Shown here: positions 7,961-56,879 of the stretch, piece after piece
How positions within the stretch are numbered: position 1 is the first letter of the stretch
Layout: every line of letters starts with the position of its first letter
NCBI RefSeq assembly: GCF_900184945.1
Contig: NZ_FXYF01000002.1
Span: forward strand, 434,001 to 498,000
DNA length: 64,000 nt
Direction of reading: 5' to 3'
Source: Antarctobacter aquimaris
Lineage (GTDB): Bacteria > Pseudomonadota > Alphaproteobacteria > Rhodobacterales > Rhodobacteraceae
Translations under genes and position numbers: made by a program
Notes under the pieces: generated by a model
The model's input: only the letters and a program-made list of their open reading frames with translations
What the model was told of the DNA's origin: nothing
Database searches by the model: none

Positions 7961-9145
7961 ATGAAGATGTGCGTCGGCATAGACGCGGCGAAGGTCACGC
8001 ATTGGGCGGAGGCGGTGGCGGTGGATGGCGAGGGCCGGGTCGTTCTCGACCGCGCGGTCGAGAACGACCCGGAGGCGATCGACGGCTTTGTCGCGGAGCT
8101 TCGCGGGCTCGGACAAGAGATGGCGATCGGGCTCGACGTGGTGGGCTCCTTCGCCCGTTTCCTGGAAGCCACGCTTCTGGCCGAGGGCTTCGCGCTGGTT
8201 CACACCCCCGGGATCGCGGTGAACCGCGCCAGTCAGGGCTTCGCCGGCGGCGAGCGAAAGTCCGACCCGCGCGACGCCCGCACCATCGCCGAGCTGGTGC
8301 GCACCCGCGATCTTCGGCCGATCCTGCCCGACGACGACAGCATCGTCGCGATCCGGCTCAAGGTCGGGCGCCGGCGCGAGCTGATCCAGGACCAGACACG
8401 GCGCATAGCGCGTCTGCGCGGGCTTCTCTGCGGCATTCATCCCGGCCTCGAACGGGCGCTCGACATCACCTGCAAGGGACCTCTGGCGCTGCTCGCGCGC
8501 TATGTCACGCCGGCCGAGATCCGCCACGCCGGCAAGGCGCGGATCGTCGCGCATCTGAAGAAGACACCGCATCTGCATGGGACGCAGGCCCTGGCGGACC
8601 GTGCCCTGGAGGCGGCCCATGCCCAGAAGATCGCCGTGCCGGGCGAAGCACCCACGGCCGACCTGATCCGGGAACTGGCCGCCGAGGCCCTCGATGCGAG
8701 GGCGAAGATCGCGCGCATCGACCGCGACCTCGAGACCCTTCTGACCGACCACCCTGACGGCGCCCTCATCCGTTCGCTGCCGGGGATGGGGGCGGTGCTC
8801 GCGGCAGAGTTCATTGCCTGCACCGGCAACATACGGCGCTTCAGATCGGCCGATGCGCTGGCGTCCGCCGCCGGCCTCGCGCCGGTTCAGCGCCAGTCCG
8901 GCAAGCGCGCAGTCTGGCGGCGTGCCTATGGCGGAGACAAGGCCCTCAAACGCGTCTTCTACCAGAGCGCCTTCTGCGCCGTCTCCGCCCGAGACCCGCT
9001 CTCCAAGGCCTTCTACGACCGCAAGCGCCGCGAGGGAAAGCACCACAACCAGGCTCTCATCGCCCTCGCGCGGCGCCGTGTCACCGTCATCTGGACCATG
9101 CTCCAAAGACGCGAGGCCTTCGATCCCGATCGAAAAGCAGCTTGA
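7961..9145 (+). CDS. IS110-family transposase
   Basis: 394 residues. The N-terminal RuvC-like DEDD domain has D8 (GIDAAK), D59 (GLDVVGS; family members often have Glu here), and D102/D105 (KSDPRDARTIAEL). A helical middle region leads to the C-terminal Transposase_20 domain (RSLPGMGAVLAAEFIACTG, about 271-289) with the catalytic serine S313 in GLAPVQRQSGK. AAAGGAGG precedes the ATG by 8 bases. The frame is intact, so the element may be active. The TGA stop is 9 bases from the inferred right end, and its last bases start a TTGACT hexamer (9142-9147) that could serve as a -35 once the element circularises. Confidence 0.93.
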   Translation: MKMCVGIDAAKVTHWAEAVAVDGEGRVVLDRAVENDPEAIDGFVAELRGLGQEMAIGLDVVGSFARFLEATLLAEGFALVHTPGIAVNRASQGFAGGERKSDPRDARTIAELVRTRDLRPILPDDDSIVAIRLKVGRRRELIQDQTRRIARLRGLLCGIHPGLERALDITCKGPLALLARYVTPAEIRHAGKARIVAHLKKTPHLHGTQALADRALEAAHAQKIAVPGEAPTADLIRELAAEALDARAKIARIDRDLETLLTDHPDGALIRSLPGMGAVLAAEFIACTGNIRRFRSADALASAAGLAPVQRQSGKRAVWRRAYGGDKALKRVFYQSAFCAVSARDPLSKAFYDRKRREGKHHNQALIALARRRVTVIWTMLQRREAFDPDRKAA

Positions 9146-48456: not shown

Positions 48457-50604
48457 TTAGCCGGCCGCCTTCAGCTCCAGCCGCCGGCGATGCAGCACCG
48501 GCTCGGTATAGCCCGAAGGCTGCACCCGCCCCTCGAACACCAGCTCGCAGGCCGCCTGAAAGGCGATCCCGTCAAAGCCGGGCGCCATCGGCCGGTAGGC
48601 CGCATCGCCGGCGTTCTGGCGGTCCACCACCTCGGCCATGCGCTTCATGATGTCCATGACCTCGTCCCTGGACACGATGCCGTGGTGCAGCCAATTGGCG
48701 ATGTGCTGGGAAGATATCCGGCAGGTCGCGCGGTCCTCCATCAGGCCCACGTCGTTGATGTCCGGCACCTTGGAACAGCCCACCCCCTGGTCGATCCACC
48801 GCACCACGTAGCCCAGGATGCCCTGCGCGTTGTTCTCGACCTCGCGACGCACCTGCTCGGGGCGCCACTTGCGAAAGGCCGCCAGCGGGATCTCCAGCAC
48901 CGCGTCCACGTGCGCGCGCCGCCCGCCCTTGCGCAGCTTGGCCTGCACGGCAAAGACATCGACCCGGTGGTAATGCAGTGCGTGCAGCGTGGCGGCGGTG
49001 GGCGACGGCACCCAGGCGCAGTTGGCGCCCGCCTTGGGATGCTCGATCTTGGCCTCCAGCATCGCCGCCATCTGGTCCGGCATGGCCCACATGCCCTTGC
49101 CGATCTGCGCCTTGCCGGACAGCCCGCACTCCAGCCCGATATCGACGTTGCGCGCCTCGTAGGCGCCGATCCAGCCCTTGCGCTTGATGAAATCCTTGCG
49201 GCTGAACGGCCCCGCCTCCATCGAGGTGTGGATCTCGTCGCCGGTGCGGTCGAGAAAGCCGGTGTTGATGAAGGCAACGCGATGCCTGGCCGCGCGGATG
49301 CATTCCTTGAGGTTGACGCTGGTGCGGCGTTCCTCGTCCATGATGCCCAGCTTGACGGTGTATTGCGGCAGGCCCAGGGCCGCCTCGACAAAGGTGAACA
49401 CCTCGTCGGCAAAACCCACTTCCTCGGGTCCGTGCATCTTGGGTTTCACCACGTAGACGGACCCGGTGTGGCTGTTGCGCAGCCCTCCGGGCTTGGACAG
49501 GTCGTGCATGGCGATCAGTGCGGTCACCATGGCGTCCATCAGCCCCTCGTAGATTTCCGAGCCGTCGCGCAGCAGGATCGCCGGGTTGGTCATCAGGTGG
49601 CCGACGTTGCGCACCAGCATCAGCGCGCGGCCCTTGATGGCAAAGGGCGTGCCGTCCGGACCGACGAATTCCAGGTCCGGGTTCAGCGCACGGGTCATCT
49701 CCTGCCCGTTCTTGACGAAACGGTCGGTCAGGTCACCCTTCATCAGGCCCAGCCAGTTGGCATAGGCCAGCGCCTTGTCCTCGCCGTCGACGCAGGCGAC
49801 CGAATCCTCGCAGTCCATGATGGCCGAGACCGCCGCCTCCAGCCGCACGTCGGCCAGCCCCGCCTGGTCGCGCGCGCCGATCATGTGCGTGCGGTCGAAC
49901 ACCAGCTCGACATGCAACCCGTTGTTGCAAAGCAGCACCGCCTCGGGCGCCTTGGGGTGGCCGCGATAGCCGCGGAACTTGTCCGGCTGGATCAGCGGCT
50001 GGTCGTCGACCAGCAGCGCGCCACCCTGCACGTGGTAGCGCCGCGCGTCGGCGTGGCTGACGCCCTCGACCGGAAAGGCCTCGTCCAGGAACACCCGCGC
50101 CCGCGCCACCACGCGCGCACCGCGTCCCTTGTCATAGCCGCCCTTGGGCGGGGCCGAGCCCATGGCGTCGGTGCCGTAGAGCCCGTCATAGAGGCTGCCC
50201 CAGCGCGCGTTGGCCGCGTTCAGCGCGTAGCGCGCGTTGGTGATCGGCACCACCAGCTGCGGGCCGGGCACGCGGGCGATCTCGGGGTCGGTGTTGGCGG
50301 TCTCGATCTCGAAGTCGCCACCCTCGGGCAGCAGGTAGCCGATCTCGCTCAGGAAGGCCTTGTAGGCCTCGTGGTCGTGCGGCTGGTTGGCGCGCGCCTT
50401 GTGCCAGTCGTCGATCTGCTTCTGCAGGCTCTCGCGCTTGTCCAGCAGCGCCGTGTTGCGCGGGCCGAAGTCATGCGCCAGCGCCGAAAGCGCGGTCCAG
50501 AATTCCCCCGCCTTGACACCGGTGCCCGGCAGGGCATGGGCCTCGATGAATGACGCAAGGCGTGTGTCCACCTGCAACCCCGCGCGCTCTGTTCGGTCGA
50601 CCAT
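48457..50604 (-). CDS. glcB: malate synthase G
   Basis: 715-residue monomeric enzyme condensing glyoxylate with acetyl-CoA. [30 protein letters not shown] opening; [31 protein letters not shown] and [16 protein letters not shown] are family segments; the catalytic barrel includes [37 protein letters not shown] and the C-terminal domain ends [24 protein letters not shown]. The start at 50604 has GAAGAGGTATACC upstream. No isocitrate lyase is near; in this group glyoxylate may come from the ethylmalonyl-CoA pathway or glycolate. Confidence 0.96.
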
Positions 50605-50729
50605 GGTATACCTCTTCGGATGATGTGGCGCGGACCCTAGCATTTCGTTTCCGATAGGCAACATTCGACAGCCGCAATACTGTGCCTTCGCGGCGAAAGT
50701 TGCGCATGACACGGACAGGAGGACAGGCC

Positions 50730-51359
50730 TTGGCCGAACATCTCATCGACCTTGCCACGTGGCCGCAGGCCGACCGGTTCCACTGGTTCCGGCGCTACGA
50801 GCGGCCGCATTACGCCGTGACCACGCGGCTGACCATGACGCGGCTGATGGCGCAGCGCAAACCCTCCGGGGTGTCGCCTTATCGCGCCTGCCTACACGCC
50901 ATCGGCAGCGGGCTGCACGCGGTGCCGGCGCTGTGCACGCGCTTTCGCGGCGACCGGGTGGTGCGGCATGACCGGGTGGCGCTGTCGGTGACGGTGCCCA
51001 GGGTGGACGGCGGGTTCAACTACGCCGACCTGCCCTTCGATCCCGACTATGCCCGGTTCGAGGCAAAGGCCTCGGCGCGCATCGTGGCGGCGCGCACCCG
51101 CGACGGGCTGGGCGCCAATGACGGATCGCAGGATGCGGTGGCCTACCTGTCCTGCCTGCCCTGGCTGGATTTCACCGCGCTGGACAACGCCCTGCCCGAT
51201 GCGCAGGACTGTATCCCGCGTGTGTCCTGGGGCCGGATCGTGCCCGAAGGCGACGCATGGCGCATGTCCATGGCGATCCAGGTGCACCACGCGCTGGTCG
51301 ATGGCGAACACCTGGGCGCGTTCTTTGCCGCCGTGCAGGACGCACTGGACACGGTCTGA
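50730..51359 (+). CDS. CatA-like (chloramphenicol-acetyltransferase-type) O-acetyltransferase
   Basis: 209 residues from the TTG at 50730, which has AGGAGG 8 bases upstream and gives the family length; an ATG at 50706 lacks such a site. Family motifs: [23 protein letters not shown]-like [15 protein letters not shown], and the catalytic HHALVDG at 186-192. The acceptor is unknown, and most chromosomal relatives have no shown chloramphenicol activity. Divergent from glcB. Its end faces four strong palindromes. Confidence 0.85.
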
Positions 51360-51371
51360 TCCGGGCGCGGA

Positions 51372-51482
51372 AACGCCTTTCGAAAGGCGTTCCAAGCGAT
51401 TTCGAAATCGCTTGAAAAGCGGTGTCCCAGCCGCATGCCAACGGCGTTCGAACGCCGTTGCAAAGGCGCTTCGAAGCGCCTT
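51372..51482. repeat. four perfect palindromes centred on TTCGAA
   Basis: Between convergent genes: AACGCCTTTCGAAAGGCGTT (51372-51391); AAGCGATTTCGAAATCGCTT (51394-51413, extending one pair to 51393-51414); a 22-base palindrome around GGCGTTCGAACGCC (51439-51460); and AAGGCGCTTCGAAGCGCCTT (51463-51482). The arms differ, but every centre is TTCGAA. They probably terminate transcription from both sides, but four in 111 bases is excessive for that. Confidence 0.85.
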
Positions 51483-51491
51483 CCCCGCGCC

Positions 51492-53312
51492 TCAGGCCGC
51501 CGCCTCGTCCTCGCCCGCCTGTTGCCGCGCCCAAAGCGCCGCGTAGCGCCCGCCACGGGCCAGAAGGCCCTCGTGCGTGCCCTGCTCGACCACCTCGCCG
51601 TCCTGCAACACCACGATGCGGTCCGCGTCCGCGATCGTCGACAGCCGGTGCGCGATGGTGATCACCGTGCGCCCCTCGCCGGCGCGGCGCAGCGCCTCCT
51701 GGATGCTCGCCTCGGTCTCGGTGTCCAGCGCGCTGGTCGCCTCGTCCAAGAGCAGGATCGGCGGGTCCTTCAGCAGCGTCCGGGCGATGCCGACGCGCTG
51801 CTTTTCCCCGCCCGAAAGCTTCAGCCCGCGCTCGCCCACCTGGGTGTCATAGCCCTCGGGCAGACTGGCGATGAAGTCGTGGATCTGCGCATCCCGCGCG
51901 GCGGCGTGGATCTCCGCCTCGGTCGCGCCGTCGCGGCCATAGGCGATGTTGTAGCGGATGGTGTCGTTGAACAGCACCGTGTCCTGCGGCACCACGCCGA
52001 TCGCCGCGTGCAGGCTGTCCTGCGTCACGTCGCGGATGTCCTGCCCGTCGATCGTCACCCGCCCGCCGTCCACGTCGTAGAACCGGAACAAGAGCCGCCC
52101 GATGGTCGACTTGCCCGACCCGGACGGCCCCACCAGCGCCACGTTCTGCCCCGCGTCCACCCGCACGTCGATGCCGCGCAGGATCGGCCGCGACGCGTCA
52201 TAGCCGAACTTCACCCCCTCGAAGGCCACCACCCCGCCGGTCACCTTCAGATCCGGCGCGCCGGGCTTGTCCGACACCTCGCGCGGCTGCTCCAGCAGGT
52301 CGAACATCTCGCCCATGTCGACCAGCGCCTGGCGGATCTCGCGGTAGACCGTGCCGAGAAAGTTCAGCGGCATGGTGATCTGGATCATGTAGGCGTTGAC
52401 CATGACGAAATCGCCCACCGTCAGCGTGCCGTTCTGCACCCCCAGCGCCGCCATGACCATGACCGCGACCAGCCCCGATGTGATGATCAGCGACTGCCCG
52501 GCGTTCAGCATCGCCAGCGAGGTGGCGGTGCGGATCGCCGCATCCTCGTAGCGCTCCATCGCCACGTCGTAGCGCGCCGCCTCGCGCCCCTCGGCGCCGA
52601 AATACTTGACCGTCTCGAAGTTCAGCAGGCTGTCGATGGCCTTCTGATTTGCGTCGGTGTCCTGCCTGTTCATCTCGCGCCGCAGCTTCACCCGCCACTC
52701 GGTGACCTTGAAGGTGAACACGACGTAGAGCGCGATCACCCCCGCCACCACGATCAGGTACCAGACGTCGAACAGGAAAAAGAGCACCGCCGCGATCATA
52801 AGCAGTTCCAGCAGCAAGGGGCCGATGGAGAACAGCAGGAAGCGCAGCAGGAACTCCACCCCCTTCACGCCGCGTTCGATGATCCGCGACAGCCCGCCGG
52901 TCTTGCGCGTGATGTGGTAGCGCATCGACAGGCGGTGGATATGGGTAAAGGTTTCCAGCGCCAGCCGCCGCAACGCGCGTTGGCCGACCCGGGCAAAGAC
53001 CGCGTCGCGCAATTGCTGGAAACCGACGCTCATCAGCCGCGCCATGCCGTAGGCCACGGTCAGCCCCACCGCGCCCAGCATCAGGTCCGACACGTCGCCC
53101 GACAGCGTGTCAACCGCCGCCTTGTAGATCAGCGGCGTGCCCACGGCGACCAGCTTGGACAGCAGCAGGAACCCTAGCGCGACCACCACCCGCTGCTTGA
53201 CCCAGGTCTGGCCCTCGGGCCAGAGATAAGGCCCGACCCGGCGGATCGTGCGCCAGCCCGAGCGGCGTTCCTCGGCGGCGGTCTGCCGGTCGGTGGTCAG
53301 GTCGGGGGGCAT
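51492..53312 (-). CDS. ABC exporter, Atm1/ABCB7-type (permease-ATPase half transporter)
   Basis: 606 residues: six membrane helices in about 30-330 ([56 protein letters not shown], and so on), with the Atm1-specific [19 protein letters not shown]. The ATPase domain from about 365 has Walker [10 protein letters not shown], signature [15 protein letters not shown] and Walker [13 protein letters not shown]. Bacterial Atm1 proteins export glutathione derivatives and glutathione-bound metals. Complete. It ends 9 bases from the palindrome cluster. Confidence 0.95.
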
Positions 53313-55996: not shown

Positions 55997-56879
55997 CCCG
56001 CCTGCGCCGCGCCCTTTCCTGAGCCAGGCTGGCGACCGAGTAGATCGCCAGCGCGACCCAGATCAACCCGAAGGCGACGATGTACCAGATGGTCAGCGGC
56101 TCTCCGAACAGCACGACCGCGCAAAAGAACTGCAGCGTCGGGTTGATGTACTGCAACAGGCCCAGCGTGGTCATGTTCACCCGTTGTGCCGCGGCCGAGA
56201 ACATGATCAGCGGCAGCGCCGTCAGGAACCCGGAAAACACTAGCAGGACCGAAGTGTAGAGGTCGCCGCCGAACACGCCCTTGTCCTGCATCGCCAGCGT
56301 CACCAGCCAGGTCAGGCTGATCGGCGCCAGCAGCAGCACTTCGGCGGTGACGGACACCACCGGCCCCACCGCCAGCCGTTTCTTGACGATGCCGTAGGCG
56401 GCAAAGGTGCTGGCCAGGATCAGCGCGATCCAGGGCGCGGTGCCCAGCCCCCAGGTCAGCTGCACCACCGCCAACGTTGCCAGCCCCACGGCCACCCATT
56501 GCGCCACCCCCAGCCGCTCGCGCAGGACGACGACGCCCAGCAGCACCGCCAGCAGCGGAAAGATGTAGTAGCCCAGCGAGGTTTCCCGCAGCTGGCCGAT
56601 CTGCACCGAGAAGATGAACAGGAACCAGTTGGCGGTGATCATCAGCGCCGAAAACCCGGTGATCGCCACCTTCTTCGGGCTTCCCAGCGCGTCGCGCAGA
56701 CGCGCCAGCCGTCCCTGGAAGGCCAGCAGCCCGGCAAAGACCACCAGCGACCAGAAGGTGCGATGCGCCAGCAACTCCAGCGGCGGCACATGGACCAGCA
56801 GCTTGTAATAGATCGCCGACAGCCCCCAGATCGTGCAGGCGCCGATCATCAGCAGGATGCCCCGGGTGTGCGTGCTCAT
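55965..56879 (-). CDS. rarD: RarD-type EamA/DMT permease
   Basis: 304 residues, about ten membrane helices. MSTHTRGILLMIGACTIWGLSAIYYKLLVHVPPLELLAHRTFWSLVV is the RarD opening; NWFLFIFSVQIGQLRETSLGYYIFPLLAVLLGVVVLRERL and GLLQYINPTLQFFCAVVLFGEPLTIWYIVAFGLIWVALAIYS are typical of both EamA repeats. Named for chloramphenicol sensitivity in E. coli; natural substrate unknown. The ATG at 56879 is preferred over an upstream in-frame codon because the extra 37 residues are not protein-like. Confidence 0.93.
   Translation of the reverse strand: MSTHTRGILLMIGACTIWGLSAIYYKLLVHVPPLELLAHRTFWSLVVFAGLLAFQGRLARLRDALGSPKKVAITGFSALMITANWFLFIFSVQIGQLRETSLGYYIFPLLAVLLGVVVLRERLGVAQWVAVGLATLAVVQLTWGLGTAPWIALILASTFAAYGIVKKRLAVGPVVSVTAEVLLLAPISLTWLVTLAMQDKGVFGGDLYTSVLLVFSGFLTALPLIMFSAAAQRVNMTTLGLLQYINPTLQFFCAVVLFGEPLTIWYIVAFGLIWVALAIYSVASLAQERARRRRVMTSPADAPL

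Follow-up and report, generated by a model that had tools for sequence, protein, structure and literature searches.

The four palindromes between two convergent genes in the window (the whole stretch of 64,000 nucleotides from Antarctobacter aquimaris that was analyzed) represent a single instance of a hairpin array that is restricted to one family and located directly behind stop codons. The position of these arrays, their predicted folding and the kept pairing of their stems fit RNA hairpins at the ends of transcripts, and as U-tracts are missing the hairpins would count as I-shaped terminators or as barriers to exonucleases. We put a probability of roughly 0.5 on the reading that the arrays are tandem, often two-way, U-less (I-shaped) terminators or barriers at 3' ends, and consider that they probably help to end transcription. 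What would be new is the occurrence of tandem U-less 3'-end hairpins in arrays of unlike arms, and the observation made at one locus turned out to be much wider than this locus. The arrays look like an apparently undescribed kind of repeat; no paper was recognized as describing them in the open-access text of PMC with the terms searched.

The array between the CAT-like and the Atm1-like gene

The original prediction had placed four perfect TTCGAA-centered inverted repeats of 20-22 bases with distinct arms in the gap of convergent catA-like and Atm1 genes, which they were said to fill. Both statements were borne out. The gap (51360-51491) lies between the facing stops of two convergent ORFs, one of the CAT family and one encoding an ABC exporter, and contains four palindromes without mismatch (20, 22, 22 and 20 bp), each with TTCGAA as its center and with arms unlike those of the others (Table 1). 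The middle slot holds a decayed fifth stem that had been overlooked. The first base of the array is found 12 bp past the CAT-like stop, the last base 9 bp from the exporter stop. The exporter is presumably Atm1-like, a name that follows the original prediction, and homologues were found in 61 out of 61 family genomes searched (A. aquimaris included).

Table 1. Features of the convergent gap and its two neighboring genes (positions within the window).
Feature	Position	Strand	Sequence or basis
CAT-like acyltransferase ORF	50682-51359	+	PF00302, E 4.8e-16
Hairpin 1, arm CGCCT, TTCGAA center, 20 bp perfect palindrome, outer unit	51372-51391		AACGCCTTTCGAAAGGCGTT
Hairpin 2, arm GCGAT, TTCGAA center, 22 bp perfect palindrome	51393-51414		CAAGCGATTTCGAAATCGCTTG
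Slot 3, degenerate hairpin GCGG...CCGC, 24 bp, register kept	51415-51438		Sequence; paired in both predicted RNA folds
Hairpin 4, arm CGGCG, TTCGAA center, 22 bp perfect palindrome	51439-51460		CAACGGCGTTCGAACGCCGTTG
Hairpin 5, arm GGCGC, TTCGAA center, 20 bp perfect palindrome, outer unit	51463-51482		AAGGCGCTTCGAAGCGCCTT
Atm1-like ABC exporter ORF, facing the CAT-like ORF	51492-53312	−	PF00664 and PF00005

In total 17 TTCGAA sites occur in the window compared to 8.0 expected, and at the sites other than these four the palindrome never exceeds 10 bp. RNA folding of the array compared to shuffled sequences gave z-values of −6.35 and −6.21 for the two strands. On both strands the array folds with a stem that closes it as a whole, yet such a closing stem was rejected, as flank pairs match no better than shuffled ones (5.07 vs 5.55 in A. 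aquimaris, 5.20 vs 5.30 in genome G035). Rfam covariance models gave no match in the whole window at gathering score and none up to E 1 in 51300-51560, and a consensus scan for terminator-like sites found none in 50500-52500. Plasmid carriage of the array was discarded as a candidate after a query of 161 bp gave no match in a plasmid collection at E up to 1e-5.

The CAT-like gene sits between the exporter and malate synthase G (48457-53312). In three relatives (L023, L024 and L026), judged by eye, the exporter is followed by a malate synthase-like start without a CAT gene between them. Elsewhere in the window a perfect 38-bp palindrome with a CGCGCG center (8035-8072) lies within ORFs of at least 150 aa on both strands.

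A genome-wide family of arrays

The pattern AASSSNNTTSSAANNSSSTT matches 125 times in the A. aquimaris genome (5.31 Mb), and the reversed pattern does not match at all. We further considered 858 kb of this genome, which included the window and was chosen regardless of palindromes. It contains 20 TTCGAA-centered and 6 TTGCAA-centered palindromes of at least 18 bp, compared to 0 or 1 of either class in each of 20 order-3 Markov resamplings. The genome-wide excess, one of the two checks named for the original prediction, is strong, and the prediction is not refuted by it.

The format was analyzed in 172 arrays from A. aquimaris and other genomes (43 genome labels, G025 being counted under two names). 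They possess one to five stems, with a center-to-center spacing of 20-25 bp in 284 of 320 neighboring stems. Genome-wide the core varies and includes TTGCAA, TTGGAA, TTCCAA and others besides TTCGAA, while the same arrays also hold stems with GC, GG, CC, CA or TT centers or with loops of 1-4 nt. As these varied centers and loops occur within the same arrays, the constant feature is the pairing, not the core. TTCGAA is the commonest center, with 346 of 492 stems that were in part selected for it. A total of 429 stems are perfect, six carry one G-U-type mismatch and six another single mismatch; the 55 stems with two to five mismatches (uninspected) we take to be mostly frames across adjacent stems. 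In A. aquimaris the 30 compact arrays comprise 93 stems with 30 different arms, the top arm occurring 11 times, in a partial set made up of all AAC-type sites, the first 50 of the 94 AAG-type sites listed, and the 858 kb.

Position behind genes

In nine genomes a predicted gene 3' end is no more than 60 bp away from 72 of 88 arrays, and for 69 of them the distance is at most 33 bp, according to home-made gene calls in which several array-overlapping ORFs are probably spurious. The same distance of 60 bp is reached by 15% of 5000 random intergenic 70-mers, so that the preference for 3' ends, the second check on the original prediction, is likewise strong. A nearby 3' end is found on both sides of 26 arrays, on one side of 46 and on no side of 16; the corresponding numbers for 9000 random 70-mers are 40, 1135 and 7825. 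Convergent gaps hold 23 of 41 A. aquimaris arrays compared to 113 convergent gaps among 675 gaps overall (binomial 1e-8).

At convergent gaps as such the arrays are a minority device. If the 49 convergent gaps of 40-400 bp in the 858 kb are regarded, five hold an array and eight a U-tract hairpin, with one gap holding both, and 37 hold neither. At C45:54031-54125 of A. aquimaris a convergent gap is occupied by an array together with a hairpin that looks canonical and has A/T tails; this suggests that the two kinds can substitute for each other.

Arms and centers

Adjacent stems of an array hardly ever repeat an arm. In 139 compact arrays identical arms were counted in 1 of 486 pairs, compared to a mean of 32.6 and a minimum of 16 in 2000 within-genome shuffles. 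The centers depend on the slot: outer hairpins prefer TTCGAA, inner ones more often have TTGCAA or other centers. In 36 compact arrays of at least three units a CG center is present in 56 of 72 outer and 18 of 61 inner stems (Fisher 3e-8), and the contrast becomes weaker if loci selected for a CG center are added (134 of 168 outer, 69 of 135 inner). Two-way use does not explain the palindromic centers, because their share is no higher at arrays flanked by two gene ends (63 of 79) than at those with a single one (114 of 129). Complementary centers, candidates for loop-loop kissing, were spotted by eye in a few arrays.

Orthologous gaps and paired change

Gaps with homologous genes on both sides hold arrays across genera, in which the pairing is kept and the arms are different. 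The arrays at C32:139352 of A. aquimaris and C1:140585 of G035 have four stems each in equal register with different arms. Another array gap is common to G035, Nioella sediminis, Vin_22 and Rhodosalinus sediminis. The cleanest case of paired change is the gap comparison between G035 and N. sediminis, in which 35 stem pairs are the same, 4 differ on both sides and 1 differs on one side.

We compared 21 pairs of loci between different genomes, excluding two self-pairs of G025 that arose from its double name. Six comparisons were without change and 15 with change. Together they gave 435 unchanged stem pairs, 121 changed on both sides with pairing, 13 changed on one side and 1 otherwise (70 vs 7 when 14 of the 21 were counted separately), counts that are biased towards pairing, as there is hardly another way in which two perfect palindromes could differ, and that come from pairs which share loci and so are not independent. 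Imperfect units are under-counted in these comparisons, since the search pattern fixes A/T positions and demands stems of at least 8 bp; one imperfect unit, in L243, was omitted. In arrays of unequal length the register is ambiguous and the outcome varies with the end at which the matching of units begins: N. sediminis and Rhodosalinus show 9 paired changes in one count and 2 in the other.

Among the explanations offered in the original prediction was a mobile palindrome, with compensated changes behind its divergence. The paired change was indeed seen, but the comparison of perfect palindromes favors such a count. Because of the non-independent pairs and the end-dependent matching we treat the paired-change evidence as softened. 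The odds given to our reading are unchanged by this, because they are based mainly on position and array grammar.

Distribution among genomes

Among 295 Rhodobacteraceae genomes, one per genus, nine contain at least 30 matches and 16 at least eight, while a control pattern never gave more than four. From the rest of the class 187 genomes were sampled, with three matches at most. The distribution is patchy. A doublet pattern with TTCGAA center was found in at least 110 stretches of the GTDB genome collection; among the matches listed, 78 of 80 loci belong to Rhodobacteraceae or to a genus we take to be a member (Nioella, Marivita, Roseovarius, Tropicibacter, Rhodosalinus, Pseudoponticoccus, Mameliella and others), and two are assigned only to Alphaproteobacteria.

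Relatives that lack this format may carry a different one. A search for tandem hairpin clusters gave three in 120 kb of genome G020, with a TGC or GCA loop present once or more in every cluster, and one in 100 kb of G047. None was found in 100 kb each of G049, G034 and G009, and none in a 60-kb piece of the array-rich G025. The G020 clusters at C21:34987-35074 and 56648-56761 consist of tandem perfect hairpins with unlike arms and 3-nt loops, mostly TGC or GCA, and one G020 set is located directly 3' of an Atm1-like gene. The G020 sets may be the form that such arrays take in another lineage.

Proposed terminators or barriers at 3' ends

Stacked terminators had also been considered in the original prediction. 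Position and structure fit this explanation, but the usual U-tract is missing: only 5 of 176 flanking 8-mers contain four or more T. The varied loops and non-palindromic centers are as expected of hairpins and not of a dyad site in DNA.

A mechanism may be outlined as follows. Each stem would fold as soon as it is transcribed, and several successive stems could compensate for the absent U-tract. Unlike arms might prevent mispairing between adjacent stems and reduce deletion by slippage. If the arrays act as barriers at 3' ends, they would block read-through as well as 3'-5' exonucleases. In the window a single array could in this way be used by both genes, the CAT-like one and, on the opposite strand, the Atm1-like one.

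Some observations count against the terminator reading. G-U mismatches are nearly absent, and more of them would be expected if selection acted on one RNA strand. Spaced stem pairs often have the same arm, contrary to the rule seen in compact arrays. The arrays without a predicted 3' end within 60 bp (16 of 88), the empty majority of convergent gaps and the lack of the array format in most relatives have to be added.

An extension of this reading, which we regard as rather doubtful, would see the arrays as a lineage-specific 3'-end system, in which unlike perfect hairpins are copied as sets within a genome and drift between genomes. The arms would then be a genome-specific vocabulary, with separate roles of the outer TTCGAA and the inner, often TTGCAA, centers, and a dedicated factor that reads or maintains them might be present only in the array-rich genera.

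Alternative explanations

The main rival is a serious one, even if we hold it to be somewhat unlikely. It regards the arrays as a dispersed palindromic DNA repeat of the REP/BIME kind, copied as units between loci and tolerated or favored at gene ends, with perfection kept by acting as DNA (cruciform or dimeric protein) or by single-strand copying. The in-register likeness of arms in 2-unit arrays is 0.464 within compared to 0.08 between genomes, and in 4-unit arrays 0.468 compared to 0.15; neither difference was reached in 500 label shuffles. From this greater likeness within genomes it seems that some array sets are copied from one locus of a genome to another, and three G035 loci (1868667, 2273495 and 2957354) even share an identical set of four arms. 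This homogenization speaks for a DNA repeat, together with the patchy distribution and the near-total perfection as DNA (429 perfect stems compared to 12 with one mismatch). The 3-unit arrays argue against it, as they are not homogenized (0.13 within, 0.118 between, reached by 190 of 500 shuffles), and so do the conserved array positions at orthologous gaps across genera.

The scarcity of the marks of known REP elements speaks against the DNA repeat, too. In a zone from 8 nt outside to 2 nt inside the two ends of 506 stems, the tags are rare with 7 matches to GTAG/CTAC and 46 to CGTC/GACG, double hits included and no chance rate computed. PF01797, which we take to be the Y1 transposases with the RAYT type included, was found in 1 of 15 array-rich genomes (of the 16 with at least eight matches) and is missing in the other 14; it was also found in 1 of 15 array-poor genomes. 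Mobilization by RAYT is unsupported by these numbers. A DNA-level repeat stays a serious rival to the terminator reading nevertheless, because G-U pairs are few, palindromic centers are no commoner in two-sided arrays and spaced pairs are identical.

An origin of the perfection by mutation seems improbable to us. Template switching during replication would correct quasi-palindromes and copy arms over 50-150 bp with little or no functional selection. It would account for the ratio of perfect to one-mismatch stems just given and for the spaced stem pairs (spacer of 54-129 bp), in which 18 of 23 have an identical arm despite unrelated spacers: 15 of 15 in G035, compared to 6.0 and a maximum of 11 in shuffles, and 3 of 6 in A. 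aquimaris. Under it one would predict neither the location at 3' ends nor the scarcity of repeated arms in compact arrays nor the outer/inner rule of the centers, and in the 400 kb listed palindromes with centers other than TTCGAA and TTGCAA occur apart from one another.

A structured or conserved spacer in the spaced pairs was rejected: the most shared 7-mer occurs in 8 of the 15 G035 spacers (shuffle range 6-12), and the folding signal of 15 G035 and 7 A. aquimaris spacers is little (z −2.2 to 1.3). Three spaced pairs of A. aquimaris (C16:15329, C18:40642 and C11:440326) have centers 107 bp apart and seemingly unrelated spacers, and identical arms in two of the three.

That the palindromes are sites of one dimeric protein reading the TTCGAA core, the remaining idea of the original prediction, is weakened to a very improbable explanation: TTCGAA is the commonest center and preferred in outer units, but the center varies between GC, GG, CC, CA, TT and 1-4 nt loops inside the same arrays with pairing kept, the arms are free to vary provided they pair, and one fixed recognition site as sole cause is rejected on these grounds.

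Implications

Per genome, the arrays amount to dozens of naturally occurring versions of a single 3'-end element. With them it would become testable how transcription ends without U-tracts in GC-rich bacteria, and how a dispersed element changes its sequence in concert under perfect pairing. The scarcity of repeated arms would represent an uncommon case of selected sequence orthogonality inside a natural RNA or DNA array. One must keep in mind that such palindromes may be mistaken for protein-binding sites or REP elements.

Comparison with known systems

REPIN are grouped with REP/BIME. Membership of the arrays in this group fails on the tag, the transposase and the conserved stem, as a single REP-like stem in many copies is not what the 30 arms among 93 stems represent. 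REP/BIME are short, often grouped palindromes whose usual place is 3' of genes, in gaps of the unidirectional and the convergent type (PMC3733652). The arrays resemble them as short palindromes that often occur several together, mostly downstream of genes; they differ by the rarity of GTAG/CGTC tags, by the PF01797 domain missing in 14 of 15 genomes and by their many arms.

Bidirectional intrinsic terminators of Bacillus cereus are common to convergent genes and have stems that evolve by paired changes, with a poly-U tract and mostly G-U intermediates (PMC5381666). The arrays resemble them in the paired changes of their stems and, for the 26 of 88 with a 3' end close on both sides, in their location, and differ in the few single G-U-type mismatches and the missing U-tracts. 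The canonical L-shaped terminator, with its U-rich tract directly 3' of the stem, is not what the flanking 8-mers (5 of 176) and the scan of 50500-52500 (0 sites) indicate.

Tandem I-shaped terminators are a named class. The strong stem behind a gene without a U-tract is found here as well, in view of the 72 of 88 arrays near a 3' end and the folding z-values of −6.35 and −6.21 in the window. In Methylosinus sporium, U-less ends make up 602 of 772 highly structured transcript ends (PMC12403871). The I-shaped terminators of GC-rich bacteria share with the arrays the GC-rich hairpin behind the gene and the lack of a U-tract, whereas the arrays are distinguished by a format specific to the family, in which two to five stems, most of them perfect, follow each other in nearly fixed register, by their unlike arms and by homogenization within the genome.
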